Positions 542-13,766 of a stretch of 21,002 bases of DNA are shown piece after piece. The stretch comes from a virus, in IMG/VR virus record IMGVR_UViG_3300049057_000060, positions 1 to 21,002 of that record. One strand, written 5' to 3'. Below the pieces are notes generated by a model. The model was not told the DNA's origin, made no database searches, and worked only from the letters and a program-made list of their open reading frames with translations. The number at the start of each line of letters is the position of its first letter. Position 1 is the stretch's first letter. A program made the position numbers and the translations under genes.

Positions 542-772
542 ATGCCCCGGAGCCGTGCCAGCAGGTGGTTCGGTTCCGGGGTGTTCTGGATGTGGTTCTG
601 GTCTGGGGTGGCTGTTCTCGCCATGGTCTGGGGCGTGGCCACGTTCGTGTTCTGGATGGACTCGGTGCGCAACCTGAACGCCATCTCGGTGATCACGATG
701 TGGTTGTCCTTCATGGCCGGTTTTCAAGCCACGCTCGGTATGCGGAAGGCTGACCCAGAAGACCCCTTGTGA
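542..772 (+). CDS. small membrane protein, two TM helices (76 aa)
   Basis: A 76-residue protein with a basic N-terminus (MPRSRASR), a Trp/Phe-rich hydrophobic helix at about residues 10-37, a short polar link (DSVRNLN) and a second helix at about 46-66, ending in an acidic tail (ADPEDPL). Both ends would lie on the same side of the membrane, probably the cytoplasm by the positive-inside rule. It has no signal-peptidase site. The gene follows the two FxSxx-like genes by 18 bp, and its last codons overlap the -35 box of the strong promoter at 767. Its mRNA is probably leaderless. Small two-helix proteins are common in actinophage early regions and some act in superinfection exclusion, but no specific function can be assigned. 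Confidence 0.65.
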   Translation: MPRSRASRWFGSGVFWMWFWSGVAVLAMVWGVATFVFWMDSVRNLNAISVITMWLSFMAGFQATLGMRKADPEDPL

Positions 773-795
773 TCACAGGGAGGGGTGTGTATACT
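767..795 (+). promoter_or_regulatory. strong promoter with CACAGGGAGGGG operator-like spacer
   Basis: TTGTGA (767-772), a 17-bp spacer and TATACT (790-795). The spacer carries CACAGGGAGGGG at 774-785, shared with the promoters at 1345, 4239(-) and 9510. Predicted transcription start is near 802. It should drive the structured leader, the proline-rich peptide and possibly the tRNA at 1270. Confidence 0.7.
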
Positions 796-1060
796 AGAGT
801 CCTCCAGCAGGAAGAGAAGGCCCGCTGAAGTGAGGATCCCGGGGGCGGATGGGTTCACGTTCACCTCTCCCGGGATCCGAGGGGGAAGTGCCGGCGCACC
901 CCCACGGAACGAGCGCCAGGCCCCTTGGGGCGGCTCAATCCGTGGGTGTAAAGCGAGGATCGACACCTCTGTCCCCCACGTGTGGGCTCCCAACGAAGTT
1001 CCACGCAAGATCCCCTCCCGACTCTCGACCGGGAGGGGATCTTCTAACTTAAGGAGGATC
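796..1060 (+). promoter_or_regulatory. hairpin-rich leader RNA upstream of the proline-rich peptide
   Basis: About 265 nt without a credible gene, packed with inverted repeats. GGATCCCGGG (834-843) pairs with 869-878. CCCACGGA (901-908) pairs with TCCGTGGG (939-946), enclosing GAGC/GCTC and GCCC/GGGC stems. CCCA/TGGG pair around 975-986. A perfect 14-bp stem, AAGATCCCCTCCCG (1007-1020), pairs with 1030-1043 around a 9-nt loop. The last hairpin has no U-tract, so it is not a standard terminator, and it ends 7 nt before AAGGAGG. Its left arm (GATCCCCTCC) could also pair imperfectly with that Shine-Dalgarno, which would allow a switch between two structures. A regulatory leader, riboswitch-like element or small RNA are all possible. 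I recognise no known RNA family. Confidence 0.45.
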
Positions 1061-1174
1061 ATGAGTAGACCACCCAGTCCACCCCCACCAAGGCCTCCAT
1101 ACAATCCACCACCCCCGCCACCTAGGCCAGCGCCGGCCCCAGCTCCAAAACCAGTGCCGGCACCTGGGAGGTAA
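1061..1174 (+). CDS. 37-residue polyproline peptide
   Basis: ATG at 1061 preceded by AAGGAGG at 1051-1057 (3-nt gap, slightly short but a perfect core). The peptide has 37 residues, 21 of them proline, with runs of four and six prolines followed by an alternating Ala-Pro tail (RPAPAPAPKPVPAPGR). There is no signal peptide and no hydrophobic segment. Runs of prolines stall ribosomes that lack EF-P, so the peptide could act in cis as a stalling leader. It could also be a short SH3-ligand-like or cell-wall-spanning segment. The strong promoter, long structured leader and strong ribosome site argue that it is expressed. An in-frame upstream extension to 785 exists but lacks a ribosome site and has no protein-like composition, so I reject it. 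Confidence 0.55.
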   Translation: MSRPPSPPPPRPPYNPPPPPPRPAPAPAPKPVPAPGR

Positions 1175-1181
1175 TCAGTTG

Positions 1182-1279
1182 ATGGGCTGGACAGCCAGGT
1201 AAGAAGAGGGATCAGCGCGCCGGGCTGGCTGGGCGTGCTGTTGACACTGGTCCTTCTCCCCATCTATCAGGCCAGGTAG
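1182..1279 (+). pseudogene. possible frameshifted small membrane protein
   Basis: ATG at 1182 follows GGGAGG (1166-1171) at a good distance but reads only six codons (MGWTAR) before TAA. Slipping back one base at that point gives VRRGISAPGWLGVLLTLVLL and then PIYQAR before TAG at 1277-1279: a basic N-terminus, a hydrophobic helix and a basic tail, the classic shape of a small membrane protein. It could be a frameshifted gene, a sequencing slip or a recoded gene. The end overlaps the tRNA by about 10 nt, which argues for caution. Confidence 0.2.
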
Positions 1280-1343
1280 CTCAACAGGTTAGAGCAGCGG
1301 ACTCATAATCCGCAGGGTGTCAGTTCGAAACTGACCCTGGCCA
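1270..1343 (+). tRNA. tRNA with anticodon CAT (Met or Ile2)
   Basis: Full cloverleaf: acceptor GGCCAGG (1270-1276) with CCTGGCC (1336-1342); D stem GCTC/GAGC (1279-1282, 1292-1295); anticodon stem GCGGA/TCCGC (1297-1301, 1309-1313) with loop CTCATAA; 5-nt variable loop; T stem GTCAG/CTGAC with loop TTCGAAA; discriminator A1343. Anticodon CAT is at 1304-1306. The anticodon loop is common to elongator tRNA-Met and to the tRNA-Ile2 whose C34 is converted to lysidine, and these cannot be told apart here. CCA is not encoded. It lies inside the rightward early block, probably read from the promoter at 767. Confidence 0.9.
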
Positions 1344-1344
1344 C

Positions 1345-1373
1345 TTGACAGGGACCCCTCCCTGAGCTACTCT
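1345..1373 (+). promoter_or_regulatory. strong promoter for the DUF2637 gene, with operator-like spacer
   Basis: TTGACA (1345-1350, perfect consensus), a 17-bp spacer and TACTCT (1368-1373). The spacer holds CCCCTCCCTGAG (1355-1366), the reverse complement of the shared CACAGGGAGGGG element with one mismatch. It begins two bases after the tRNA. Confidence 0.7.
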
Positions 1374-1460
1374 TACTTTTACCGGTGAATGACGGACGCG
1401 GCTTCATGCCCCCGTAAACCGGACCAATCACCTTTTTTAGCCCTTTAAGGAGGGAACCTC
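1374..1460 (+). promoter_or_regulatory. 5' leader with possible attenuator
   Basis: An 80-nt leader in front of the DUF2637 gene. GGTGA (1384-1388) can pair with TCACC (1428-1432), which is followed at once by six T residues (1433-1438). An inner GGC/GCC hairpin sits at about 1400-1409. The arrangement resembles an intrinsic terminator upstream of the gene, but the outer stem is only 5 bp. AAGGAGGG at 1447-1454 is the ribosome site. Confidence 0.25.
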
Positions 1461-2201
1461 ATGCTATTCAAAAGGAAGCCGCTGCCCAAGACCCCGAGGG
1501 AGCGTGCGCAACAGAAGCTTGACGTATTCATCAATGTGCTATGGGCCTGTCGAGGAATGATCATCTTCGGATTCGTTACCTCGGCCGGTGGGAACGTGCT
1601 TCACGCTGTCAGTAAGGCGGCGGTGGGACAACCACTGCCCATCCGAGTCGCCATCGCCCTCCTCGCCCCGATCCTCCTCCTGGGAGCGTTCGAGGCCATC
1701 AGCCGGATCCCACTGCCCCCAGCGGGGTTGAAGTGGTACAGCCTCCGGTACTGGGCTACTGGCCTGCGGATCCTGGCGATGTTCACCATCGCCACCGTGA
1801 CTGTAGTGACCTCGTTCCGGCACCAGCGGAGCGCCCTTGAGACGTACGGAGGCGACCACCTCCAGGCCATCATGTTGCCTGGGGCGATCGACGCCTTCAT
1901 GCTCGTGGGCTCTCTCAGCGTGCTGGAGGTCATGATCTTTATCCGCAACATGGAGGAGAAGATCGCAGCCATGGACCTGTCCGCCAGTGCCAAGGAGGAC
2001 GCGAAGGTGGCCCCGGAGAAGCCGCTGAACGGCCGCGAGCGCATCGCCATGGCCTTCATGGACATGCCGTGGGCCTCGGTCAAGGACATCGCGACCAGGG
2101 CTGGGACCACAGAGGCGTACACCGCCACTGAGGTCAGCAAGCTGAAGAAGACGCAACGTGCCACCAACGGAACCGGACAACCGGCCACCGCCACCCTGTA
2201 G
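1461..2201 (+). CDS. DUF2637-like membrane protein with C-terminal helical/HTH segment
   Basis: A 246-residue protein with four predicted membrane helices at about residues 31-50, 62-82, 96-118 and 135-160, a conserved LPGAIDAFMLVGSLSVLEV stretch in the fourth, then a linker and a basic soluble tail (about 190-235). In that tail ERIAMAF...SVKDIATRAGTTEAYTATEV reads like a winged-helix DNA-binding segment. The layout fits DUF2637 proteins of actinobacterial plasmids and phages, some related to Spd spread proteins, in which a membrane domain precedes a soluble domain. ATG at 1461 is preceded by AAGGAGGG. It has its own strong promoter at 1345 and a terminator at 2249-2287, so it is a single-gene unit. 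Membrane-tethered regulation or DNA positioning is possible. Exact function unknown. Confidence 0.75.
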   Translation: MLFKRKPLPKTPRERAQQKLDVFINVLWACRGMIIFGFVTSAGGNVLHAVSKAAVGQPLPIRVAIALLAPILLLGAFEAISRIPLPPAGLKWYSLRYWATGLRILAMFTIATVTVVTSFRHQRSALETYGGDHLQAIMLPGAIDAFMLVGSLSVLEVMIFIRNMEEKIAAMDLSASAKEDAKVAPEKPLNGRERIAMAFMDMPWASVKDIATRAGTTEAYTATEVSKLKKTQRATNGTGQPATATL

Positions 2202-2248
2202 CATAGTTACCGCCATTCACGTGGTTAATGTGTCCAGGGGTGGACAGG

Positions 2249-2287
2249 AAAAAGGCCCCGTACCTGTATCAGGTACGGGGCCTTTTT
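2249..2287. terminator. bidirectional intrinsic terminator
   Basis: A perfect 17-bp inverted repeat: 2249-2265 (AAAAAGGCCCCGTACCT) with 2271-2287, loop GTATC, flanked by A5 on the left and T7 on the right (2283-2289). It therefore works on both strands, for the rightward DUF2637 gene and the leftward ParB-like operon that converge here. Confidence 0.92.
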
Positions 2288-2324
2288 TTGTCCCCTTGGT
2301 TAGTCGCCACGGGTGGAGGTGACT

Positions 2325-2397
2325 TGACTAGTCGGGATACGGCGTGACATGTCGAATGGACCTGATTAGATCAGTTGGGGTGAGACTCGACCTGTCG
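2325..2397 (+). repeat. TGACNNGTCG motif cluster A
   Basis: Exact copies at 2325-2334 and 2345-2354, spaced 20 bp (two helical turns), and a near copy CGACCTGTCG at 2388-2397 inside the end of the 60-residue gene. The cluster lies between the bidirectional terminator and the end of the leftward ParB-like operon. It is the same motif as in clusters at 7031-7186 and 11276-11465. Confidence 0.6.
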
Positions 2398-2553
2398 TGA
2401 TCTCTTTCTGAAACAGACTCCACATGCCCGCTTGTGCCTGCGCCGTATCTCCGGTCCCAGCCTACTGATGACTTGTGTCTTGGACTGACCCGGCAAAAGG
2501 CGCACATTGTGCTCCCAGCCGCAGTCGTAACGGAACACCAGTACCGTGGCCAT
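2371..2553 (-). CDS. 60-residue Cys/His protein, possible zinc-binding
   Basis: The last gene of the leftward ParB-like operon, starting 2 nt after the stop of the upstream gene, so probably translated by coupling. It is a 60-residue basic protein with C11-x3-H15 (YDCGWEHN) and a second pair ACGVC at about residues 43-47, just after HKR. That spacing could bind zinc in a small beta-hairpin or ribbon fold. The C-terminal part (RKRSRQ) is strongly basic, suggesting nucleic-acid binding. No family recognised. The stop TGA is at 2371-2373, 84 bp before the bidirectional terminator on this strand. Confidence 0.55.
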   Translation of the reverse strand: MATVLVFRYDCGWEHNVRLLPGQSKTQVISRLGPEIRRRHKRACGVCFRKRSRQVESHPN

Positions 2554-2555
2554 GG

Positions 2556-3386
2556 TTAGAGCCGCCGCTTCCGCCAGGTGGGCAGAGCCGACTTGGCATC
2601 GTTCTTCTTGCCCTTGTTGTAGATCTCGGTGACCAGCCAGGCCAGCGACATAGATACGGAGCCGCCGGTAGTGTTGGCGAACTGCTTCGCCTCCGCGTGC
2701 AGCTTGCGGGCACCGCCCTTGTAGTTCTTCAGCCGGTCGACCAGGTGATCCACGTCGATCTTGGAGCCGTGCTCATTGAACAGTGCCCCCAGACCCTCCA
2801 GGAGGACTGCCTGAGAGCCGTAACGATCCGTGCTCCAAGCCCTGGTGATGGTCAGGAATACCAACTGGAGCAGGCTCGGCTCCTTCGGCCCACCAGGAGC
2901 ATTCTGAGAGATCTCATCGAGCCGGTACAGCTTGTTGATCGCGTTGACGTGGCCGGTGGCCGCATGCGGGTGGACGGCCCAGCCGTAGGCATGGACGCTA
3001 GCCTCGATACGCAGGGCCTGCTCGTCCTCGGCGGAAACCCTGGCCTTGTGCTTCTCCAGGGGACTGGGCTGGTTGGCGTAGTTCAGGTCCAGGAACATTT
3101 GCGCTTCCTGGGCCAGGGTCAGGCCCTTGTACACGTGGGCGGTGATCTCCCCGGTACCGTCGGTAACCCGGATGACTACTTCCTTCCGGTGCCATCCATC
3201 GATGACATAGTCACCGTCGATACGCCGGGACACGTGGATCACGCCCAGGGCATCAGCGTTGAAGGCCTTGACGATGTTGTCGACCTTCCTGGCCTGGATC
3301 TCGTCACGCTGCACTCTCTTGTCGACCAGAAGATCGGCAGCCTTCAGTTTCTCGACCGTGTAGGTCTGTTCCAGTGTTTGGGTCAT
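2556..3386 (-). CDS. ParB-like protein (ParB/DUF6551-like), 276 aa
   Basis: An N-terminal ParB-like domain: VQRDEIQARKVDNIVKAF at about residues 24-41, GVIHVSRRIDGDYVIDGWHR at about 48-67, the latter the glycine-rich DG-x-HR motif typical of phage ParB-like and DUF6551 proteins. The remainder (about 100-276) is helical and basic at the C-terminus (WRKRRL). Its ATG overlaps the stop of the upstream ParB-like gene by 4 bp (ATGA), giving coupled translation and probably fixed stoichiometry. ParB-fold domains bind CTP or act as nucleases or sulfiredoxin-like enzymes. In phages they occur in regulators, DNA modifiers and partition proteins. No Walker ParA partner is present in the window. Partition, DNA binding and nuclease roles all remain open. 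Confidence 0.75.
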   Translation of the reverse strand: MTQTLEQTYTVEKLKAADLLVDKRVQRDEIQARKVDNIVKAFNADALGVIHVSRRIDGDYVIDGWHRKEVVIRVTDGTGEITAHVYKGLTLAQEAQMFLDLNYANQPSPLEKHKARVSAEDEQALRIEASVHAYGWAVHPHAATGHVNAINKLYRLDEISQNAPGGPKEPSLLQLVFLTITRAWSTDRYGSQAVLLEGLGALFNEHGSKIDVDHLVDRLKNYKGGARKLHAEAKQFANTTGGSVSMSLAWLVTEIYNKGKKNDAKSALPTWRKRRL

Positions 3387-4180
3387 TTGTTGTTGATCTC
3401 CTCAGTAAGCAGTTTAATGAACGCATTGAGTTTGGTGCGCACCAGAAGTAGCTCGGAGCGCTTCGCTTCTGCCTCCTCCTTCTTGAACTTCCTATTCAGT
3501 GGACCAAGACGACGCAGCGCGGCAACTGTTCCGTTGAGGGAGGCAACAGCCGACGACAGGGCTTCCTGTTGCTGGGTCAAGGACACGATGTCACCAGTGA
3601 GGCCAATGGTCTTTCTGGTGTATTCAGCAGCACCGTAACCAGTCAATTTGCCTTGAGTCATCATGTCGATGGCCTCGGCCGCCCGAGTTGCTCGGACCGG
3701 GTCCTGAAGGGCTCGGTAGGTGTAGACCAGTGCCGCTAGTTGTCCTGGTGACGCCATGCCTAGCGCATTGGACAGTAGGTCGGCACCTCCGGCTGATTCG
3801 CGTGTCGTTCCCTCCGCTCTTGGCTTACCGCGCTGGTTATGTGCCTTGGTGATGATGAGCAGCGGCTGCATAGCGTTGTAGATCTCCCAGATGCGCTGGG
3901 GGGTCAAAGGCAATGCAGCTACGCCATGTTCACGAGCCTGTTTGAGCTGGTCACAGGCCCTGGGGTACATGAACGTGGGGGACACAACAATCTCGGTCTC
4001 ACCGAGGGCCCGTAGTGTCTCTATGCGTCGAAGACCATCAATCAGCTCAAGGTCTTGAGTGACCAGAGGTGGTATCTCGACGCCATGTTCTTTGATGCTT
4101 GCCATGAGTTCTTGTAGATCGTCGCCGGGGGTTAGGACCCGGTCGGTGACGATCAGGTCGATGGCGACGCGCTTAGCCAT
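3383..4180 (-). CDS. ParB-like protein with putative HTH and coiled coil, 265 aa
   Basis: Residues 8-66 form a ParB N-terminal domain: LQELMASIKEHGVEIPPLVT, then LIDGLRRIETLRALG, the counterpart of the GxRR motif. Residues about 135-158 (SNALGMASPGQLAALVYTYR) and GKLTGYGAAEYTRK (about 177-190) resemble the helix-turn-helix and following helix of ParB proteins. Residues about 197-262 are a predicted coiled coil. I place the start at ATG 4180 because AAGGGAG lies 6 nt upstream and the protein begins at the ParB fold. The longer frame to 4417 runs back through the promoter into the primase gene. First gene of the leftward operon, under the promoter at 4239-4212. Two exact parS sites in the portal gene make DNA partition or condensation a testable role. 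A transcriptional regulator is the main alternative. Confidence 0.8.
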   Translation of the reverse strand: MAKRVAIDLIVTDRVLTPGDDLQELMASIKEHGVEIPPLVTQDLELIDGLRRIETLRALGETEIVVSPTFMYPRACDQLKQAREHGVAALPLTPQRIWEIYNAMQPLLIITKAHNQRGKPRAEGTTRESAGGADLLSNALGMASPGQLAALVYTYRALQDPVRATRAAEAIDMMTQGKLTGYGAAEYTRKTIGLTGDIVSLTQQQEALSSAVASLNGTVAALRRLGPLNRKFKKEEAEAKRSELLLVRTKLNAFIKLLTEEINNK

Positions 4181-4211
4181 AGGTCTCCCTTCGGTCGTGC
4201 TTGTACACCGA

Positions 4212-4239
4212 AGCATACCACAGGGAGGGGTAGGGTCAA
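4212..4239 (-). promoter_or_regulatory. promoter of the ParB-like operon with CACAGGGAGGGG element
   Basis: On the minus strand, TTGACC (4239-4234), a 16-bp spacer and TATGCT (4217-4212). The spacer contains the shared element, read CACAGGGAGGGG on the plus strand at 4219-4230, so relative to the promoter it points the same way as at 1345 and opposite to those at 767 and 9510. The whole promoter sits in the 62-bp gap between the primase stop and the ParB-like start. Confidence 0.75.
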
Positions 4240-4242
4240 ACT

Positions 4243-6816
4243 CTAGCTGAGGATTGCCGGGATCATCCCCAGCACCCCGACCCCAGTCGCCCTGCCCAGT
4301 CCTCGCCAGAACGTGGTCCCGTTGAACCGGACCTGATCGATATCCTGGGAGGCGTACAGGATCCGGTGGCTGAACCGACGGTTGCCGAGGGGGCGTTCCC
4401 CGGCCATCTTGGCCCACTCCATGTACATGGAGTACAGGTCGGAGGTACGGATCTGCTGGCCTGGGTCGACGATCAAGATCGAGTCGTTGACCTTCTCCTC
4501 CAGGAACCTGGCCACCGGATCGGACTGGAGGCGCACCTCGCGCACGGAGCCCTGGACATGCTCAGGCTCCTGGAGGCCATGGACCTGGTAGTCCCGGAGG
4601 CCAACGAGCAGCCAGTTCAAGATCCCGTTCAATTCCTTGGCCAGGATCTTGTGGGCGTAGTCCGAAATCTCCCCTTCGCCCAGTAGGACCGTAGTAAAAG
4701 GTATGATCTTGGCACGGCGCCAGATCGCATCGTCGTCAGAACTGAAACGGGGTGGATGGTTCGTGGCCAACCAGATCGTGCACCGAGGTGCCCAACTCTG
4801 GAACTTCTGGTACAGCTCGCGGGACTGGATCTGGTCGCGGCCGGTTAGCCGTTTGATCAAGTCCTCATTGTAGGCGGTGTGCTCATTTGTCTCCGAGGTG
4901 GATACGAACCGCTTGCCCCGCAACATATGTAAATCATTCGATGGGCTGGATCCCTCAGATCCCCGGGCGCGCAGCGTACCCGATGGGGCCGGTACACCAT
5001 AATCACCAAACAGCAGCTCCATCGTGGCCATCAGCGTGGACTTACCAGTCCCCGACGGGCCACAGACCAGGAACAGGGAGCGCTGATCTGCTTCCCCCAG
5101 CAGGCTGTAGCCCAGCGCCCGCTGCACGTACGACCTCATGCCTGGGTCTGGCAGTACGCGCTCCATGAACCCTTCGAACTGTGGGCAGGTTGCCCGTGGG
5201 TCGTAGGAGGCGCCCATGGTTCTGGTCATCAACTGATTAGGGTTGTGCGGCAGCAATTCGTGAGACGTGAGATCGTAGGTGCCGTTGGCCAGGTTCAGCA
5301 GGTTCCGGTCGTGGTCCATCTCGTCCACTGTGACCGTGAACCCTGGAATAGCCCGCAGACTTTTGACTGCTGCCTCTGCCCGTGACCGGTTGCCAGCTCG
5401 CATCCACCACTTGGCGCCAGACTCGTCACCAAGCTCCCGGGCTCGTACGGACCTGGCCAAGGCCATTTCTGTGAACTCGTTCTCTAACATGAACCGTTGG
5501 TCACGACGCCAACACGATCCGTCCCACCGAACGAACTCTTTCTCCTCCGCCAGGTACAAGTACCGGCCCCGGACCCGGTCCGCCAGGTAACGAGCGTTGC
5601 CGGCGTCGTTGGGTTGGTAGCCAGGGTCGGCCTCCGCCTGTGGTTCATGATGGAGCACGTCCAAGGCTCGGGACGGCTCGCCGAAGCCCAACCGGCGTAG
5701 CTCACGAGCGGCCACATGGAAGTCCCCGCCATGGTTCAGGTGGGCGTAGACCGCGAACTTAGTCAGAGGTTCTTCATGCGGCAGGGACGTGGACGTACTG
5801 AAGACGAACATCCGGTCCCGGTCGTCCCGGTACCCCGTGGTGGCCGAGTGGCCCTCACGGGGGTTCTTACCGGGACGGGTCCAAAGACGTTCCGGTCCCT
5901 GTCTGCCGGCGGCATGCCAGCCTTGGGGTTCAAGAATCTCTGCCCAGTCAGTGACCGCTTCGAAATGATCCCCGGGGGTCAGGGAGGAGGACGGCCGTGA
6001 GGGGGCGTGGAAGGGTGAGTCGGCGTCGGAGACGGGTCGTGGGGATACGTCGGAGTGAGTGAGAACTGACCAGTCCGGCACTGAGTTGTCGGCGTGGAGA
6101 CGTAAGGAACGGGCCAGGTGCGGTCCGTCGAGCTGATTGGGTAGGACATGATTCGCGATGTCGGTAGGGATGAGGCTTGATGCGGTTAGAGATTGGGCTG
6201 ATTCGTCGAGTGCGAGGCGCAGTGCTTCATGAATCCTGCACCGGTCCTCCCAGTCTACCGTAGGGAGGGCTCCGTACTCGCCGGAGAGGATCACCCAGGC
6301 CTCGCCGGTAGGGTGACAGAGCCCGGATGTGGGGGCCACGATGACGTAGCCGCCTTCCCCCCGGGTCTCGGCCAGGACCAGGCGCTTGGTCGGGTCCTCA
6401 TCAGCGCGCTGAGCAATCTTCGTGTTTCCCGGGACCGGGTGATCAGAGATCCGGTACAGAAGGTGCAGGCCGCCAGATGGACTCATCTCCGAGTAGCCGT
6501 ACGGCCCGGTCAGCAAGTTCCAGACCTCACCCACGCCCAGCTCGTCCATACGGTTCTGGATCTCTGTCATGGATTCGCCGTCGCAGGCGCGGCCCTCGAT
6601 TTCAGTCATCTCCAGGTTCCCGGAGACTGAGCCGCAGATCAGGGCCAGGCCGTAGGACTTGCCGTTCGACCACCATTCGTCGACCTGGTTCAAGGTCGGA
6701 ACTTCAACTTGATATTCAGCCCACCGGACGGCTGGACGCTTCGTCTTGTTCGACTTGATGGGGACTACAGATACACCACTGTTTCGCCACGTCCTGGCAA
6801 CATCTGCTAATGTCAT
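4243..6816 (-). CDS. bifunctional primase-polymerase / D5-family helicase, 857 aa
   Basis: Phage replication protein that should prime and unwind DNA at the fork. The N-terminal Prim-Pol domain (about residues 5-200) shows the acidic motif EMTEIEGR (69-76), GGLHLLYR (115-122, the catalytic His motif) and EGGYVIVAPT (154-163). The acidic residues are Glu rather than the more usual Asp. The C-terminal half has a D5_N-like region and an SF3-type ATPase with Walker A GPSGTGKST near residue 585, then FVSTSETNE and TIWLATNHPPRF, an acidic/Asn sensor motif as in P4-like primases. I choose ATG 6816 rather than TTG 6822 because GGAGGG lies 6 nt upstream. That ribosome site is in a hairpin. The gene follows a 460-bp repeat-rich region that may be the origin. 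Confidence 0.92.
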   Translation of the reverse strand: MTLADVARTWRNSGVSVVPIKSNKTKRPAVRWAEYQVEVPTLNQVDEWWSNGKSYGLALICGSVSGNLEMTEIEGRACDGESMTEIQNRMDELGVGEVWNLLTGPYGYSEMSPSGGLHLLYRISDHPVPGNTKIAQRADEDPTKRLVLAETRGEGGYVIVAPTSGLCHPTGEAWVILSGEYGALPTVDWEDRCRIHEALRLALDESAQSLTASSLIPTDIANHVLPNQLDGPHLARSLRLHADNSVPDWSVLTHSDVSPRPVSDADSPFHAPSRPSSSLTPGDHFEAVTDWAEILEPQGWHAAGRQGPERLWTRPGKNPREGHSATTGYRDDRDRMFVFSTSTSLPHEEPLTKFAVYAHLNHGGDFHVAARELRRLGFGEPSRALDVLHHEPQAEADPGYQPNDAGNARYLADRVRGRYLYLAEEKEFVRWDGSCWRRDQRFMLENEFTEMALARSVRARELGDESGAKWWMRAGNRSRAEAAVKSLRAIPGFTVTVDEMDHDRNLLNLANGTYDLTSHELLPHNPNQLMTRTMGASYDPRATCPQFEGFMERVLPDPGMRSYVQRALGYSLLGEADQRSLFLVCGPSGTGKSTLMATMELLFGDYGVPAPSGTLRARGSEGSSPSNDLHMLRGKRFVSTSETNEHTAYNEDLIKRLTGRDQIQSRELYQKFQSWAPRCTIWLATNHPPRFSSDDDAIWRRAKIIPFTTVLLGEGEISDYAHKILAKELNGILNWLLVGLRDYQVHGLQEPEHVQGSVREVRLQSDPVARFLEEKVNDSILIVDPGQQIRTSDLYSMYMEWAKMAGERPLGNRRFSHRILYASQDIDQVRFNGTTFWRGLGRATGVGVLGMIPAILS

Positions 6817-6822
6817 ATCCAA

Positions 6823-6835
6823 CCCTCCGGGAGGG
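6823..6835 (-). promoter_or_regulatory. hairpin sequestering the primase ribosome binding site
   Basis: On the minus strand CCCTC-CCG-GAGGG forms a 5-bp GC-rich hairpin with a 3-nt loop, and its right arm is the Shine-Dalgarno GGAGGG for the primase ATG at 6816. A further GGGG/CCCC pair lies just upstream. Translation may therefore depend on unfolding this stem. Confidence 0.5.
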
Positions 6836-6858
6836 GTCCCCTACGGGAGACCGGGCTT

Positions 6859-6915
6859 GCACCTGACCCTTCGAGGAGCACCTGATTACTCAGGGGGCAC
6901 CTGACTCTTCAGGAG
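6859..6915 (-). repeat. three tandem 19-bp repeats in the primase leader
   Basis: Three head-to-tail units of exactly 19 bp start at 6859, 6878 and 6897, each beginning GCACCTGA on the plus strand (GCACCTGACCCTTCGAGGA, GCACCTGATTACTCAGGGG, GCACCTGACTCTTCAGGAG). On the minus strand two of them fold as CCTGA-4 nt-TCAGG hairpins (loops AGAG and GTAA). They lie 40-100 nt upstream of the primase start. They could be iterons (DNA sites) or repeated RNA hairpins in the primase leader. Confidence 0.65.
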
Positions 6916-6959
6916 GGGGAGGTCCCTAGTGGACCGGGCTATACCTGGCCCTCGCAAGA

Positions 6960-7021
6960 GACCGGGCCCACTGATGGTGAGCTTGGTGGGCAACATGATG
7001 CCACCATTGGTTGGCCCGGTC
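6960..7021. repeat. long imperfect inverted repeat
   Basis: GACCGGGCC (6960-6968) pairs perfectly with GGCCCGGTC (7013-7021). Inside, TGGTGGGCA (6984-6992) pairs with TGCCACCA (6999-7006) with one bulge, and ATGGTG/CACCAT can pair alternatively. GACCGGGC also occurs at 6850-6857 and 6932-6939, each followed by a similar CTGRCCCT-like stretch. It may be a cruciform, origin hairpin or RNA structure upstream of the primase. Confidence 0.5.
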
Positions 7022-7030
7022 CAGGGGGCA

Positions 7031-7186
7031 CGACTTGTTACCTCGTGTCACTCCAACCGTTTCGACACGTCAAGCCGAGTCTTGGCCACCCTCTTCGGTT
7101 CATTACCGACATGTCATCCCGAGACGAACCCAATCTGCTCGACTCGTCACGTCAGAACCGTCCGGCCCACACTGCCTGACACGTCT
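7031..7186 (-). repeat. TGACNNGTCG motif cluster B
   Basis: On the minus strand exact copies are TGACGTGTCG (7072-7063), TGACATGTCG (7126-7117) and TGACGAGTCG (7149-7140), with one-mismatch copies at 7040-7031 (TAACAAGTCG) and at 7177-7186 (TGACACGTCT, plus strand). Five sites in 156 bp, all in non-coding DNA. Here the motif points left, the direction in which the flanking genes are read. Confidence 0.65.
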
Positions 7187-7243
7187 GCTCCTCCCCCCAC
7201 GGTGCAGTAGCATCTTCCATGCTCCTCAGAGCAGCAGTTGAGT

Positions 7244-7273
7244 CAGGCCCCGGGTAATGCAGCCCGGGGCCTG
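7244..7273 (-). terminator. GC-rich hairpin after the leftward operon
   Basis: A perfect 11-bp stem, CAGGCCCCGGG (7244-7254) with 7263-7273, and an 8-nt loop, with GAGT/ACTC able to extend it. It begins 5 bp beyond the stop codon of the gene at 7279-7878 in the leftward direction. There is no U-tract, so it is a tail-less terminator or an mRNA-stabilising hairpin, possibly letting part of transcription through to the primase. Confidence 0.5.
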
Positions 7274-7278
7274 TTAAC

Positions 7279-7878
7279 TCAGTAAGGGAACCGTTCCGGC
7301 CGTGGTTCTGGCAGCCGTTCCGCCCCTCGCTGGGCCTGCTGAGCCATTCGCTCCAGGTCACTGCGTATCCGCTGACTCTCAACCTCAGGTTGAGGGTTAG
7401 GGTTTTCCGCTTGTGCGGGTGGCGCTGCTGCCTGACTGACCCCCCGCGACCGGGGCAGGTCGAATCCGGTGGGTTGGAAGTCGGGGTTAGCGTCCAGCCA
7501 GGCTGTGGCCCGAGCCCGAGCGCTGGGATCTCCGGTGGCGCTCACCAGTTCGTACGGTGCATTGAACCCTGTGGATGCAACCCCCAGCCGCATCCACGCC
7601 AGCACCGGATCCTTGGAGCCGAGTCGACGCTTCAGGGAACCGATCAGTCGACCCGGACGCCACCAAGCACCTCGGGACAATTGCCCTGGTTCCCCGGTGA
7701 ACTCATCGATCACGTCCAGATCTACAAGATCCACAACGATGACATCGGACTGCCCCCCAGCACGACTGAACTTGCTGGGGACATCGTCGAGGTAGTCAAC
7801 CGCCCAGACCATGAGCAGGTGGTTGACCAGCTCGGCTGCATACGGGCCGCCAGCTTTCTCTGGTTCGGCGAATGGCAT
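7279..7878 (-). CDS. conserved phage protein of unknown function, 199 aa
   Basis: Not assigned to a named family. The N-terminal two thirds look like a compact globular domain with WAVDYLDDVPSKFSRAG (about 25-41), SDVIVVDLVDLDVIDE (about 44-59), a Trp-rich stretch GAWWRPGRLIGSLKRRLG (about 70-87), and FNAPYELVSATGDPSARARA (about 104-123). The C-terminal 55 residues are a low-complexity Pro/Gln/Arg tail. It follows a small coiled-coil gene and the Cas4-like nuclease and precedes the primase, so a role in replication or recombination is plausible. The SDVIVVD strand pattern could suit an OB-fold or single-strand-binding role, but that is only a guess. AAGGAG lies about 7 nt before the ATG. Confidence 0.75.
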   Translation of the reverse strand: MPFAEPEKAGGPYAAELVNHLLMVWAVDYLDDVPSKFSRAGGQSDVIVVDLVDLDVIDEFTGEPGQLSRGAWWRPGRLIGSLKRRLGSKDPVLAWMRLGVASTGFNAPYELVSATGDPSARARATAWLDANPDFQPTGFDLPRSRGVSQAAAPPAQAENPNPQPEVESQRIRSDLERMAQQAQRGAERLPEPRPERFPY

Positions 7879-7890
7879 TGTTCTGTCTCC

Positions 7891-8091
7891 TTAGGCGACT
7901 GGCGCTGGTTCAGTTGGTTCTGGTGTCGGCTCTGTGGCCTCGGGCGGATTATCCTGTTGCACCTTGAGTGCGATGATGGCCGCTTCTGCCTCCTCGACCT
8001 TCTTTGTCCACCGGTCCAGCATCTGTCGAGCGTGGTCGCGGTCACGGAAGAGTTTTGCCATCTCTGAAACCCACTGTTCGTCTAGGGTCAT
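7891..8091 (-). CDS. small coiled-coil protein with Pro/Thr-rich tail, 66 aa
   Basis: Residues about 5-45 form a charged helix likely to be a coiled coil (AKLFRDRDHARQMLDRW, KKVEEAEAAIIALK). The last 20 residues are an acidic Pro/Thr/Glu tail. ATG 8091 is chosen because AGGGAGGTG lies about 7 nt upstream. A longer frame from 8130 would overlap the end of the nuclease gene. The ribosome site overlaps that gene's stop, so the two are probably coupled. No family recognised. It may be an accessory or dimerising partner of its operon neighbours. Confidence 0.65.
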   Translation of the reverse strand: MTLDEQWVSEMAKLFRDRDHARQMLDRWTKKVEEAEAAIIALKVQQDNPPEATEPTPEPTEPAPVA

Positions 8092-8095
8092 GTTT

Positions 8096-8932
8096 TCACC
8101 TCCCTGGGCAACCTTGGTCATCTGCGCCATGATTTTCCCGTCCTGGGTTATACCACGGGCAGAACCCGCACTCGTTCGACGGGACAGCTTCTACATCATT
8201 CCATTTATCTGGATACGTCAATGCGTCGATTTGCAGGATCTGCTGGGCGATCAGGTGGGTTCGGCGGATAGCCGTCAACGCGATCTCCTGGCTGTACCGC
8301 GCACACCAGACGTACATGTCCTTGAGCCAGCCAGCGCGGGGCAGGAAAACAAGACAGACCCTGTCCACCGGGTGGTTCTGTTGCTCGAACCCGTAGCCGT
8401 AAATGTGGGTCTGGATCTGGTAACCCAGCGGCGGCCCGTCCCTGCGGATCTTCTTCATCACGTCAGGACCGACAGTCTTGTAGTCGATCACTGAGCGATG
8501 TTCCTTGGAGTACAGGTCCGCGTGCCCCTCAATGAACTGGTTGATCGTGAGGGTCTGCTCAGTGAACCAGTCCCACTGGGCATGCGACTCCATCCAGGAC
8601 GTGACCGCTTGGTCCATCCAACTGTGTATCGCCGTACCTACGATGGCCGGCCACCCGTCAAAGCCCGTGTTGCATGCAGGTATCTGGGCCAGTCGGTACC
8701 CGATCCGGCGGTCGCACATGGTCCCGATCTCCGACGGCCCCATCAGGACCTGCTTGGACCTGGGGTTCTGTTGCTCAGCCCACTTGACCATGGTGATGAT
8801 CTGGTCCTTGAGCAGGGTGATGAAAGGATCCTCGTCTTCGGTTACCGGCAGTAGTTTCATGTCACAGTTCGGGTGAGTTCCGAAGCCGGCGTTGACTGAA
8901 TCCATGATCGTTCCACAGATCAGACATCTCAT
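8096..8932 (-). CDS. Cas4/RecB-like PD-(D/E)XK exonuclease with Cys clusters, 278 aa
   Basis: A predicted DNA exonuclease for recombination or replication. Visible motifs: H103 in VGTAIHSWMD, D139 in EGHADLY, then VIDYKT (D150, K152; the D/E-x-K core), and Q172 in YQIQTHIYGYG, matching the RecB-type nuclease order. C73 (GTMCDRR) plus C255, C258 and C275 (ECGFC...QGC) have the spacing of Cas4/AddB-type iron-sulfur ligands. An extra N-terminal CLIC...C motif (C3, C6, C23) suggests a zinc knuckle. ATG 8932 overlaps the upstream HTH stop by 4 bp (ATGA), so translation is coupled and I reject the longer start at 8968. There is no cas1 or repeat array in the window, so this is a phage recombination nuclease and not part of a CRISPR adaptation locus here. 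Confidence 0.87.
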   Translation of the reverse strand: MRCLICGTIMDSVNAGFGTHPNCDMKLLPVTEDEDPFITLLKDQIITMVKWAEQQNPRSKQVLMGPSEIGTMCDRRIGYRLAQIPACNTGFDGWPAIVGTAIHSWMDQAVTSWMESHAQWDWFTEQTLTINQFIEGHADLYSKEHRSVIDYKTVGPDVMKKIRRDGPPLGYQIQTHIYGYGFEQQNHPVDRVCLVFLPRAGWLKDMYVWCARYSQEIALTAIRRTHLIAQQILQIDALTYPDKWNDVEAVPSNECGFCPWYNPGRENHGADDQGCPGR

Positions 8933-9372
8933 GACCTCAGCTCGTCTACGTCGGACTGGAACATCCAAAGGCCCAAGATGCCAAGATCTGTGGCTTCAAA
9001 CTCGCCGTTCCGGTAGCGGTAGAGCAGTTGTTCCTGAGGTATGCCCAGGAACGTAGCCACGACATGGAACGGCACCATGTTCCGGATGTCGATCTGGTGA
9101 TCACGCAGGATACCAAGCTCCAGGGTGGCAGTTTTGTAGAAGCGGCCCACCCTGGCGGCGGTCAGCTTCCGTAGCCGGACCGGGCGCTTCTCCCAGTTGG
9201 CGTAGGTGGGCCAGGCCACCTGGAGCAGCTCGGCCATGGCGAACCTGGTCAGGCCCAGTTGCTCACGAAGGTCCTTTAACCGGCCATCGTCTATAACGTC
9301 CTGACCGAGTTGGACTGCCTCTTCGGTACTCATCGACACGGTGACATGCTCCAAATGTCTGAGTTTGTTCAT
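8929..9372 (-). CDS. two-domain helix-turn-helix DNA-binding protein, 147 aa
   Basis: First gene of the leftward replication operon. Residues about 32-62 are a Cro/C1-type HTH (LREQLGLTRFAMAELLQV, then TYANWEKRP). Residues about 96-147 resemble the MerR/excisionase-type HTH_17 fold (PFHVVATFLGIPQEQLLYRY, RNGEFEATDLGI, then FQSDVDELRS). Having both suggests binding to a composite or bent site. ATG 9372 is supported by AAGGGAGG about 11 nt upstream; the frame extends to a TTG at 9465 but without a ribosome site. It is the best candidate in the window for a regulator acting on the promoter operators or the TGACNNGTCG clusters, but that is inference. An excisionase-like accessory is possible, though no integrase is seen. 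Confidence 0.8.
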   Translation of the reverse strand: MNKLRHLEHVTVSMSTEEAVQLGQDVIDDGRLKDLREQLGLTRFAMAELLQVAWPTYANWEKRPVRLRKLTAARVGRFYKTATLELGILRDHQIDIRNMVPFHVVATFLGIPQEQLLYRYRNGEFEATDLGILGLWMFQSDVDELRS

Positions 9373-9442
9373 TGATGGCCAGACCTCCCTTCCTGCATCA
9401 CCGATGAGCAACACAGTAGTAGGGGGGGCCGACAGAAACGGA

Positions 9443-9488
9443 ACATCCCCGCCCGTGGGGACCAAAGGGAGGCTTAGGGCGGGGATGT
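9443..9488. promoter_or_regulatory. perfect 12-bp inverted repeat in the divergent intergenic region
   Basis: ACATCCCCGCCC (9443-9454) pairs with 9477-9488 around a 22-nt interval. It lies between the leftward HTH operon and the rightward promoter at 9510, so it cannot be an ordinary end-of-gene terminator. Either a two-half operator site or the first hairpin of the leftward mRNA. Confidence 0.4.
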
Positions 9489-9509
9489 CCGGCCCAAGTC
9501 TATCGTGGT

Positions 9510-9538
9510 TTGCGACACAGGGAGGGATGGGGTATAGT
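9510..9538 (+). promoter_or_regulatory. promoter of the tRNA(AAG) gene with CACAGGGAGGG element
   Basis: TTGCGA (9510-9515), a 17-bp spacer and TATAGT (9533-9538). The spacer begins CACAGGGAGGGA (9516-9527), and the whole promoter is closely similar to the one at 767 (the same bases from -35 through the G-rich spacer to -10). Predicted start is near 9545, 35 nt before the tRNA. Confidence 0.7.
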
Positions 9539-9579
9539 GAAGATCGTTCCGGGTTCCAGCCAATGAATGCTTACACGCA

Positions 9580-9651
9580 CCCAGAGTCGTCCAATGGTAG
9601 GACGTCGGTATAAGGAACCGAAGGTTGCTGGTTCAATTCCAGCTTCTGGAA
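9580..9651 (+). tRNA. unusual tRNA, anticodon AAG with short variable loop
   Basis: Cloverleaf: acceptor CCCAGAG (9580-9586) with TTCTGGA (9644-9650), first pair C-A mismatched; D stem GTCC/GGAC with loop AATGGTA; anticodon stem TCGGT/ACCGA (9605-9609, 9617-9621) with loop ATAAGGA; 5-nt variable loop; T stem GCTGG/CCAGC with loop TTCAATT; discriminator A. The anticodon read at 9612-9614 is AAG, formally Leu (CUU), but bacterial tRNA-Leu has a long variable arm and this one does not. The body looks more like tRNA-Gln. CCA is not encoded. Charging identity is uncertain. Confidence 0.75.
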
Positions 9652-9741
9652 TCACTTCAGCCTTCATCACTCGGGACCTGGGACCTACACAACCGAATAC
9701 GTGAGACAATCCCGTGAGGACTGGGCGGTCCTGTACGGAAG

Positions 9742-11843: not shown

Positions 11844-13766
11844 GTGCGCCTCAGTAGACGAGCCAAGACTCCGGAGTTGATCTCTGATGTTTCACGTGAA
11901 ACATCGCGGAGCCTGGTCGCCTCAGCCGCCCGGATCAAGATGGATGGGCTCGGCTGGCGTACGTACAAGTTCGGGGATGACACCTGGCAAACCGAGGCCT
12001 GGCGTCTCTACGACATTGTCGGGGAGCTACGTTTCGTCTCCAACTGGATCGGATCTGCCTGCTCGCGCGTCCGTATCTATGTCGCCGAGGTGGACGACAA
12101 CGGGCGTGTCCAGAAAGAGGTAACGAAGAAGAAGGTCGCTGGCCTCGCGGACACCCTGTTCGGCGGACCTCCAGCTAAGGCTGAAGCCCTTCGCATGCTG
12201 GGGATCAACCTCACTATTGCGGGTGACTGCTTCATAGTCGGCCGCAGTACCGACGATCCGGAGTCGGACGAGTGGTATGTGGTGTCGACGAGCGAACTTA
12301 AGCGTTGGGGTAGCAACATCATCCAGCTCAACCCGGACGGCTCGAAGGAACACCTCAACCCTGGCAAAGACCTCGTAATCCGCGTATGGACTCCACACCC
12401 CAGACGAAACCTCTGGGCTGACAGTCCTACTCATGCCGCCCTCCCCATGCTCTGGGAGATCGAACGGCTCACCCGCTACGTCTTCGCTCAAATCGACTCC
12501 CGGCTGGTGAGTGCCGGCCTGCTGCCCATTCCTAAGGATGTTTCCTTCCCGGATGAAGATCCAGAACTTTCTGGGGCCGAGGCATTGACACAACGTCTCC
12601 TGGAGACGGGCTCAGCTTCCCTTAAAGGTGAGGGTACGGCCGCTGGTGTCGTTCCCACGTTCGTGGAAATGCCCCTGGAAGCTCTGGGGAAAATTGACCT
12701 AATCCAGTTCAGCAGCGAGCTGTCCAAGCAAGCTCTGGATCTTAGGTCGGAGGCCATCCGCAGGTTTGCCCTGGCCATGGACATCGAACCATCCATCTTG
12801 TCCGGAGCCGGAGAGGCCAATCACTGGGGTGCCTGGCAGATCATGGAGGGTCAGATCAACGTGCACATCGTGCCGTTGATGACCAGAATCTGTGACGCGT
12901 TGACCACGGCCTACCTACAACCAGCCCTGAAGACGATCAAGGAAGATGCCGAACGGTACGTCTTCTGGTACGACACTTCTCCGCTAACGGTCCGCCCCGA
13001 GCGGCTGAAGGACAGCCTGGAGCTGTACGACAAGGGCATTGTTTCACGTGAAACAGTGCTGCTGGCCGGTAACTACAAGATCAGCGACGCCCCCGAAGAT
13101 GAGGAGGACCTGCGCAACTTCACCCGGGAACTGATGCTGCGGGACCCCAACCTGTTCCAGATCCCTAAGGTCCGCGAAGTCGCTGGGTACACCCCTGACA
13201 TTCTCCCACCGGACACCGTGGTGACCGTCCAGCAACCAGGCCAGCCCGGCGCTGGACCGCCTCCTCCACCACCACCCCCCACGGGCATCTCTGAAACACC
13301 TGGTGGGCCGATGCCGGTAGGTCCCTCCGAAGCTCAGAATGCTCTGAGTGGTCCACCGCCGGCCCCGGCTGGGATAACGGCGTCGGCGGTGGTCCCGCTG
13401 GCTGCCGTGCCCACCTCCATGAACATGTTCGTGGTGGCCAACGCCACCGTGCTGCGGGCGCTGGAGAGGGCCGGGAAGCGGCTGCTGGATCGACACTCCC
13501 GAGACCGATGGCCGGATGTCCCCCCGTATGAACTACACACCAGGATCCGGGTGGGCGGGACGGATCATGCCGGTCGACTGCTGGATGGATCGTGGGACCA
13601 TCTCTCCGTCCTAGCTGAGGCGGTGGATCCGGAGATGGATACCGCCAAGCTCCAGTTCGCTCTCCAGGACTACTGCACAACACTCTTAGTACAGGAACAA
13701 CCACACCACGTAAACTTGCTGGCTCAATATTTGACTCATCAAGGACTCATGGATGCCAAGTCGTGA
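11844..13766 (+). CDS. portal protein, 640 aa
   Basis: The dodecameric head-tail connector through which DNA is packaged. It was identified from position (terL, then this, then MuF), length and portal-like features: WRLYDIVGELRFVSNWIGSA near residues 53-72, SDEWYVVSTSEL, the membrane-like/crown segment with EIERLTRYVFAQIDSRL, and ALAMDIEPSILSGAGEANHW at about 309-328, a typical portal stem region. A Pro/Gly-rich linker (GAGPPPPPPPPTGIS, about 471-485) separates a C-terminal domain of about 155 residues, an extension beyond the usual portal core. The start is GTG 11844 with AAGGGG 6 nt before it. The coding sequence contains two exact parS sites, both encoding VSRET (residues 16-20 and 400-404). 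Confidence 0.9.
   Translation: MRLSRRAKTPELISDVSRETSRSLVASAARIKMDGLGWRTYKFGDDTWQTEAWRLYDIVGELRFVSNWIGSACSRVRIYVAEVDDNGRVQKEVTKKKVAGLADTLFGGPPAKAEALRMLGINLTIAGDCFIVGRSTDDPESDEWYVVSTSELKRWGSNIIQLNPDGSKEHLNPGKDLVIRVWTPHPRRNLWADSPTHAALPMLWEIERLTRYVFAQIDSRLVSAGLLPIPKDVSFPDEDPELSGAEALTQRLLETGSASLKGEGTAAGVVPTFVEMPLEALGKIDLIQFSSELSKQALDLRSEAIRRFALAMDIEPSILSGAGEANHWGAWQIMEGQINVHIVPLMTRICDALTTAYLQPALKTIKEDAERYVFWYDTSPLTVRPERLKDSLELYDKGIVSRETVLLAGNYKISDAPEDEEDLRNFTRELMLRDPNLFQIPKVREVAGYTPDILPPDTVVTVQQPGQPGAGPPPPPPPPTGISETPGGPMPVGPSEAQNALSGPPPAPAGITASAVVPLAAVPTSMNMFVVANATVLRALERAGKRLLDRHSRDRWPDVPPYELHTRIRVGGTDHAGRLLDGSWDHLSVLAEAVDPEMDTAKLQFALQDYCTTLLVQEQPHHVNLLAQYLTHQGLMDAKS
11888..11903. promoter_or_regulatory. 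parS: parS site 1 (ParB-binding centromere consensus)
   Basis: TGTTTCACGTGAAACA, identical to the canonical bacterial parS consensus. It extends to a perfect 20-bp palindrome, GATGTTTCACGTGAAACATC (11886-11905). It lies in codons 15-21 of the portal gene and is read as Asp-Val-Ser-Arg-Glu-Thr-Ser. The codons GTT, TCA, GAA and ACA are A/T-rich compared with the surrounding GC-rich coding sequence. Confidence 0.85.
13040..13055. promoter_or_regulatory. parS: parS site 2 (ParB-binding centromere consensus)
   Basis: A second exact TGTTTCACGTGAAACA, 1152 bp from the first, read in the portal frame as Val-Ser-Arg-Glu-Thr (residues 400-404), the same five codons GTT TCA CGT GAA ACA as site 1. The palindrome stops at 16 bp. 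Confidence 0.85.

Follow-up and report, generated by a model that had tools for sequence, protein, structure and literature searches.

In MerR-family control, the operator is a dyad that lies inside a long promoter spacer of 19-20 bp. Closest among known systems to the element and candidate regulator described here are the immunity repressor and stoperators of the cluster A phages (L5, TipsytheTRex). The cluster A repressor is a monomer with two DNA-binding domains that recognizes asymmetric 13-mers (PMC9283540); a Cas4-family gene is located close to the one that encodes it (PMC6550527). Asymmetric 13-bp repeats, about half of them with an adjacent inverted repeat, have also been described in Cluster K mycobacteriophages as Start-Associated Sequences; these are located immediately before start codons, and a role in translation has been proposed for them (PMC3203893). 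The element studied here resembles the latter in its asymmetry and in its conservation at orthologous genes across related phages but, unlike them, is found between the -35 and -10 hexamers. With the cluster A system it shares a short (12-13 bp) asymmetric site that is repeated in the genome and overlaps promoters, a small candidate regulator predicted to carry two DNA-binding domains in one chain, and a regulator gene near a Cas4-family gene. Unlike in cluster A, where more than 20 sites are mostly in one orientation tied to transcription, there are about four sites here, two in each orientation; furthermore, relatives have dyad versions of the site, and no integrase was found in 15 large contigs. 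By analogy, the element system may work as the cluster A repressor does, a likeness of operation which does not by itself establish membership in that system. No sequence match linked the candidate to the solved repressor, and cluster A Rep was absent among the PDB-chain profile matches and structure matches listed for the candidate, although the two may be distantly related.

The analyzed stretch of DNA, hereafter the window, is a virus record of 21,002 bases from an uncultured tailed phage of soil. Its genes include those for the large terminase (TerL, 9784), the portal (11844), a primase-polymerase/D5 helicase, a ParB-like protein, DUF6551, and a Cas4-like exonuclease. A nucleotide search found no DNA similar to the window in annotated phages, and the terminases of annotated phages are less than 60% identical to that of the window. 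Since there was neither a nucleotide match nor a match to the candidate regulator among annotated phages, these could not be used for comparison. About 300 relatives were recognized in IMG/VR by their terminase, and 80 were fetched, including a 58.7-kb contig (G001) that is near-identical to the window. A scan of bacterial genome contigs (GTDB) recovered only distant alphaproteobacterial terminases, with 35-38% identity. An apparent in-frame stop at the TerL start of some relatives proved to be an alignment extending upstream of the start codon.

At up to one mismatch, the 12-mer CACAGGGAGGGG occurs four times in the window, in two exact and two one-mismatch copies, and nowhere else. The same four copies, and no others within one mismatch, are found in G001, for which an order-2 Markov model predicts 0.025 exact occurrences and 0.43 within one mismatch. 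The signal resides in this near-exact set, because looser matching, at up to 3 mismatches, reveals no enrichment in the window (32 found versus 45 expected). All four copies lie inside promoter spacers, of 17, 17, 16, and 17 bp, two in each orientation. The earlier note had assigned the copies to exactly these positions, in spacers of 16-17 bp and twice in each orientation, and this description fits all four; extending the motif search to the full-length contig and the relatives bore out the shared element as well, with four copies in G001 and the element kept at orthologous promoters.

The first copy (774-785, plus strand) is exact and in the G-rich orientation, within the promoter TTGTGA-N17-TATACT (767..795, plus), downstream of which lies the region of a structured leader and polyproline ORF. 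This promoter is probably the counterpart of the inverted-repeat-edge promoters of the relatives, where the orientation is likewise G-rich. The second copy (1355-1366, minus strand), with one mismatch, reads CTCAGGGAGGGG on the minus strand and, C-rich, CCCCTCCCTGAG on the plus strand; it is contained in the promoter TTGACA-N17-TACTCT (1345..1373, plus) of a controlled gene at 1461..2201 (plus), for which we keep the earlier designation DUF2637-like, although it had no Pfam match here. The C-rich orientation of this copy is the same as in the orthologous promoters of relatives. The third copy (4219-4230, plus strand), exact and C-rich on the coding strand of the operon, is held by the promoter TTGACC-N16-TATGCT (4212..4239, minus) of the ParB-like/DUF6551 operon, one product of which is the ParB-like protein (3386..4180, minus). 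Finally, the fourth copy (9516-9527, plus strand; one mismatch, CACAGGGAGGGA) is in the G-rich orientation within the promoter TTGCGA-N17-TATAGT (9510..9538, plus) of a transcript carrying tRNA-Leu (9580..9651, plus). The tRNA expected downstream of this promoter is indeed there, both tRNAs of the window being real, and G-rich spacers similar to that of the 9510 promoter are found upstream of TerL in L007 and L008.

The quality of the promoters, all of which had been called good, is less uniform. A sigma-70-like scan of 20 kb returned four sites, of which those at 767, 9510, and 4239 (minus) carry the element, while the fourth, at 1281, lies inside a tRNA gene and is without it. With its weak -10 (TACTCT, 3/6), the 1345 promoter was missed by the scan, although its -35 (TTGACA) is perfect.

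The core (A)CCC(A)CCCCTCCC was found again, across 59 non-redundant relatives, at promoters of the DUF2637 gene, the inverted-repeat edge (on the G-rich strand), the tRNA, the right arm, and the ParB-like operon. The DUF2637 promoter of relatives follows the form TTGACA-CCCA-CCCCTCCC-NNNNN-TANNNT with small variations; in the DUF2637 promoters that were read, the C-rich element comes a few nucleotides after the -35, and in most of them it includes an exact CCCCTCCC. The G-rich orientation characterizes the inverted-repeat-edge promoters of G002, G003, G007/G008, G010, and G023. At the ParB-like operon, the window, G002, and G014 carry the element within the spacer; G003, G007/G008, G012, G015, L108, L113, and L115 have an ordinary spacer, with a related C/G-rich stretch found between the -10 and the ribosome-binding site. 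This stretch downstream of the -10 is often a dyad (e.g., ACCCACCCCTCCCGGGGAGGGG), and a dyad copy in G009 reads TACCCC-TCCCT-GGGGTA. The orientation of the element thus varies between promoters but is fixed for each promoter, and its position ranges from the spacer to the transcript start. G001 has a fifth copy, more diverged than the others, in a spacer at 55858 on the minus strand (TTGCCC-TCACCCACCCCTCCCGT-TAGAGT), so that the regulon extends to the right arm. When 60 non-coding promoter-like sites in the 59 non-redundant relatives were compared with shuffled spacers, CCCCTCCCTG was matched at at least 8 of 10 positions in 18 spacers versus 3.6 expected (five times) and at at least 9 of 10 in 9 spacers versus 0.3 expected (about thirty times). 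A full-text literature search found no phage paper with the 12-mer.

One and the same site overlaps polymerase contacts at several promoters and is kept at orthologous promoters. Because it appears in both orientations, at shifting positions, and in dyad forms, we read the element as a protein-binding site, and its sequence pattern makes it very probable that it is the operator of some protein. The binder is likely to be encoded by the phage, and its effect is likely to be repression rather than activation. Overall, the explanation that we favor, with some confidence, is that the copies are operators of a phage regulator, most likely a repressor of early genes. Such a DNA-binding protein would control the promoters of the leader/inverted-repeat edge, the DUF2637 gene, the ParB-like/DUF6551 operon, and the tRNA and, in relatives, also some right-arm genes. 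Most simply, a protein bound between the -35 and -10 would sterically exclude RNA polymerase, and early genes, a label that is plausible for the controlled set, would be repressed until or unless the block is relieved. Activation of the MerR kind could operate in relatives with 19-bp spacers; in the window, it is not needed, since spacers of 16-17 bp are already near optimal. The locus resembles MerR-controlled promoters in having its operator in the spacer, in the second domain of the candidate, which is similar to MerR/BldC domains, and in the 19-bp spacers with dyads of some relatives, but it differs in the 16-17-bp spacers of the window and in the extra Cro/C1 domain of the candidate.

That candidate, a protein of ~145 aa encoded at 8929..9372 on the minus strand, could be the one that binds the element, an assignment that we put forward tentatively. 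Its gene is the first of a leftward replication operon, adjoins the gene for the Cas4-like exonuclease, and is found in nearly every relative covering the region. The protein is predicted to combine an N-terminal Cro/C1-type HTH with a C-terminal BldC/MerR/Xis-like HTH: Cro/C1-type HTH models of Pfam matched 28 of 32 family members, and AlphaFold produced a confident two-domain model (pLDDT 94.9), the second half of which aligns structurally with BldC, MerR-type proteins, and excisionases. The ACCCACCCCT(CCC/GGG) core is present at 0.70 per kb of non-coding versus 0.15 per kb of coding DNA in phages that have the main-clade two-HTH protein, and only in these phages is the roughly 5-fold non-coding enrichment seen. 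The core is present in 29/36 main-clade phages versus 1/10 of those with a divergent copy or none (Fisher p = 9e-5, ancestry uncorrected), an association that tracks phage phylogeny and is therefore suggestive only. In G019 and G020 (54-55 kb), the two-HTH protein was not found, and G019 (54 kb) has TACGTA palindromes in two spacers instead of the core (TTGACA-CCCCTACGTAGGGGTGTAG-TAGAGT and TTGACA-CCGGGGTACGTACCCCTG-TAGGTT); a TACGTA palindrome is also present in a promoter spacer of L129, which is without the two-HTH protein.

Against this candidate, the promoter of the two-HTH gene itself is without the standard element: the upstream regions match the 13-mer weakly, with 3/31 reaching 11/13, so that autoregulation through the same site has little support. 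Ahead of the -10 of this gene, 19 of 33 orthologues (0.6 expected) have a second conserved element, TGTC-NN-(A/C)CCC, which is related to, yet distinct from, the standard core; the version of the window, TGTCGGCCCC-N7-TACTGT, lies in the upstream region at 9373..9445 (minus). In many relatives, the second element directly follows a terminator-like hairpin.

Other binders have to be weighed against the two-HTH protein. It is improbable, though conceivable, that a different phage protein binds the element, such as the ParB-like protein autoregulating its own operon as KorB-type partition proteins do. This operon itself bears the element, its product has a ParB N-domain (PHROG 5e-10) and, in the structure model, a central helical domain, and phages without the two-HTH protein keep the ParB-like gene together with a GC-rich promoter dyad. 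Nevertheless, some phages without the CCCACCCCT core (L119, L125, L126, and L129) have ParB-like genes, too, and the ParB-like proteins of relatives are only 24-39% identical to that of the window although the operator is conserved. If, on the other hand, the phages had adopted the site of a host transcription factor, the site sequence would be expected to be common across phages and not clearly diversified per phage, as is observed: operators within one phage are not clearly more alike than those of different phages (p = 0.058, hand-picked sites), and there is therefore no co-evolution signal by which a phage-encoded binder could be told apart from a conserved protein of the host. We nonetheless find a host factor unlikely, given that the same class of promoters has other dyads in relatives that lack the two-HTH protein and that no actinobacterial regulator site is known to match ACCCACCCCTCCC.

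Two further readings fare worse. Free of protein, the sequence might act directly on promoter melting, as the earlier note had offered in the alternative for a G-quadruplex or the C-rich strand, or it might act as a G-quadruplex or i-motif; the element is G/C-rich and placed in the spacer, where G- or C-runs are found in many relatives. A G-quadruplex requires four closely spaced runs of three or more G, and the sites have 2 (774), 2 (1355), 3 (4219), and 3 (9516). Moreover, matches to the 10-mer are much more frequent in the non-coding spacers than in shuffles that preserve composition, several relatives have the element as a dyad downstream of the -10, and the ParB-like site leaves the spacer in relatives, all of which fits a protein-free effect poorly and makes it very unlikely; we set the G-quadruplex reading aside on grounds of orientation and position. 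Least probable of all would be that a special sigma factor reads the sequence as an extended promoter element, a notion to which the near-fixed spacing lends itself, CCCCTCCC starting a few nucleotides after the -35 in C-orientation promoters. An element of this type would keep one orientation and place, but the orientation is opposite in two promoters of the window and in the inverted-repeat-edge promoters of relatives, and in other orthologous promoters the element lies downstream of the -10; we therefore set the sigma reading aside, too.

Returning to the favored phage-regulator operator, the proposal that a common repressor or activator site defines an early/immunity regulon is upheld as to the common site, by the orthologous promoters and the two-HTH association, but not as to immunity, no integrase or lysogen having been found. 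Tyrosine and serine integrase models (PF00589 and PF00239) had no match in 15 large contigs, and GTDB bacterial genomes contained no close prophage or lysogen relative. An extrachromosomal (plasmid) prophage is possible, because the phage has a ParB-like gene and parS sites. The portal ORF contains two perfect copies of the chromosomal parS (TGTTTCACGTGAAACA), at 11888-11903 and 13040-13055, and parS is also found in the relatives G002, G006, G009, G016, L007, L008, and G022, the last with 3 exact and 5 one-mismatch copies within 5 kb. In 16 large contigs, there are 11 exact parS copies, and 200 arm-shuffled palindromes yielded none. A literature search turned up the parS 16-mer together with phages in one paper, on gut prophages.

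For a soil phage family without a close annotated relative, the two-HTH protein and the element provide a testable candidate pair of regulator and operator. A broader and more speculative suggestion, which we consider doubtful, is that a large phage family keeps its early arms under one GC-rich spacer operator, in either orientation, and an undescribed single-chain Cro/C1-BldC/MerR regulator, which would have arisen independently as a counterpart to the cluster A repressor, here in phages with no recognizable integrase and, in some cases, with parS. If true, this would be a second case of two-headed phage regulators on asymmetric sites, so far represented by the cluster A mycobacteriophages.

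Several further features of the window and its relatives were observed. The tRNA-Leu is embedded in conserved flanking RNA (GGUUCCAGCC...GCUUACACGC ... UCAGCCUUCAUCACUCGGGACCUG; about 9549-9690), for which Rfam gave no match outside the tRNA. The same flanking RNA occurs with other tRNA or tRNA-like inserts in L007, L008, G016, and L129; G002 has it with no tRNA inside. A long inverted repeat (ACATCCCCGCCC...GGGCGGGGATGT, 9443-9490) that lies between the two-HTH gene and the tRNA promoter is probably a terminator or leader hairpin. Two neighboring small ORFs, at about 281-330 and 470-523, have the common ending D-D-P-(N/D)-G-V-I-S-A-F-x-S-Y-V and represent one small gene duplicated in tandem. 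The contig ends of G002, G003, G004, G005, G006, G007, G009, and G010 are exact inverted copies of 69-123 bp that mirror internal or opposite-end sequence. For G002, G006, and G009, this points to a segment of 1-1.5 kb present in two inverted copies on either side of a 4-6-kb region, one copy having collapsed in assembly; promoters with the element are located at the repeat edge. In the repeat-edge promoters of G003 (54867, minus), G010 (56441, minus), and G023 (99, plus), an ATG follows ~8 nt past the -10, as in the example TAGGGT-TGAGGGTATG, an arrangement that resembles leaderless mRNAs.
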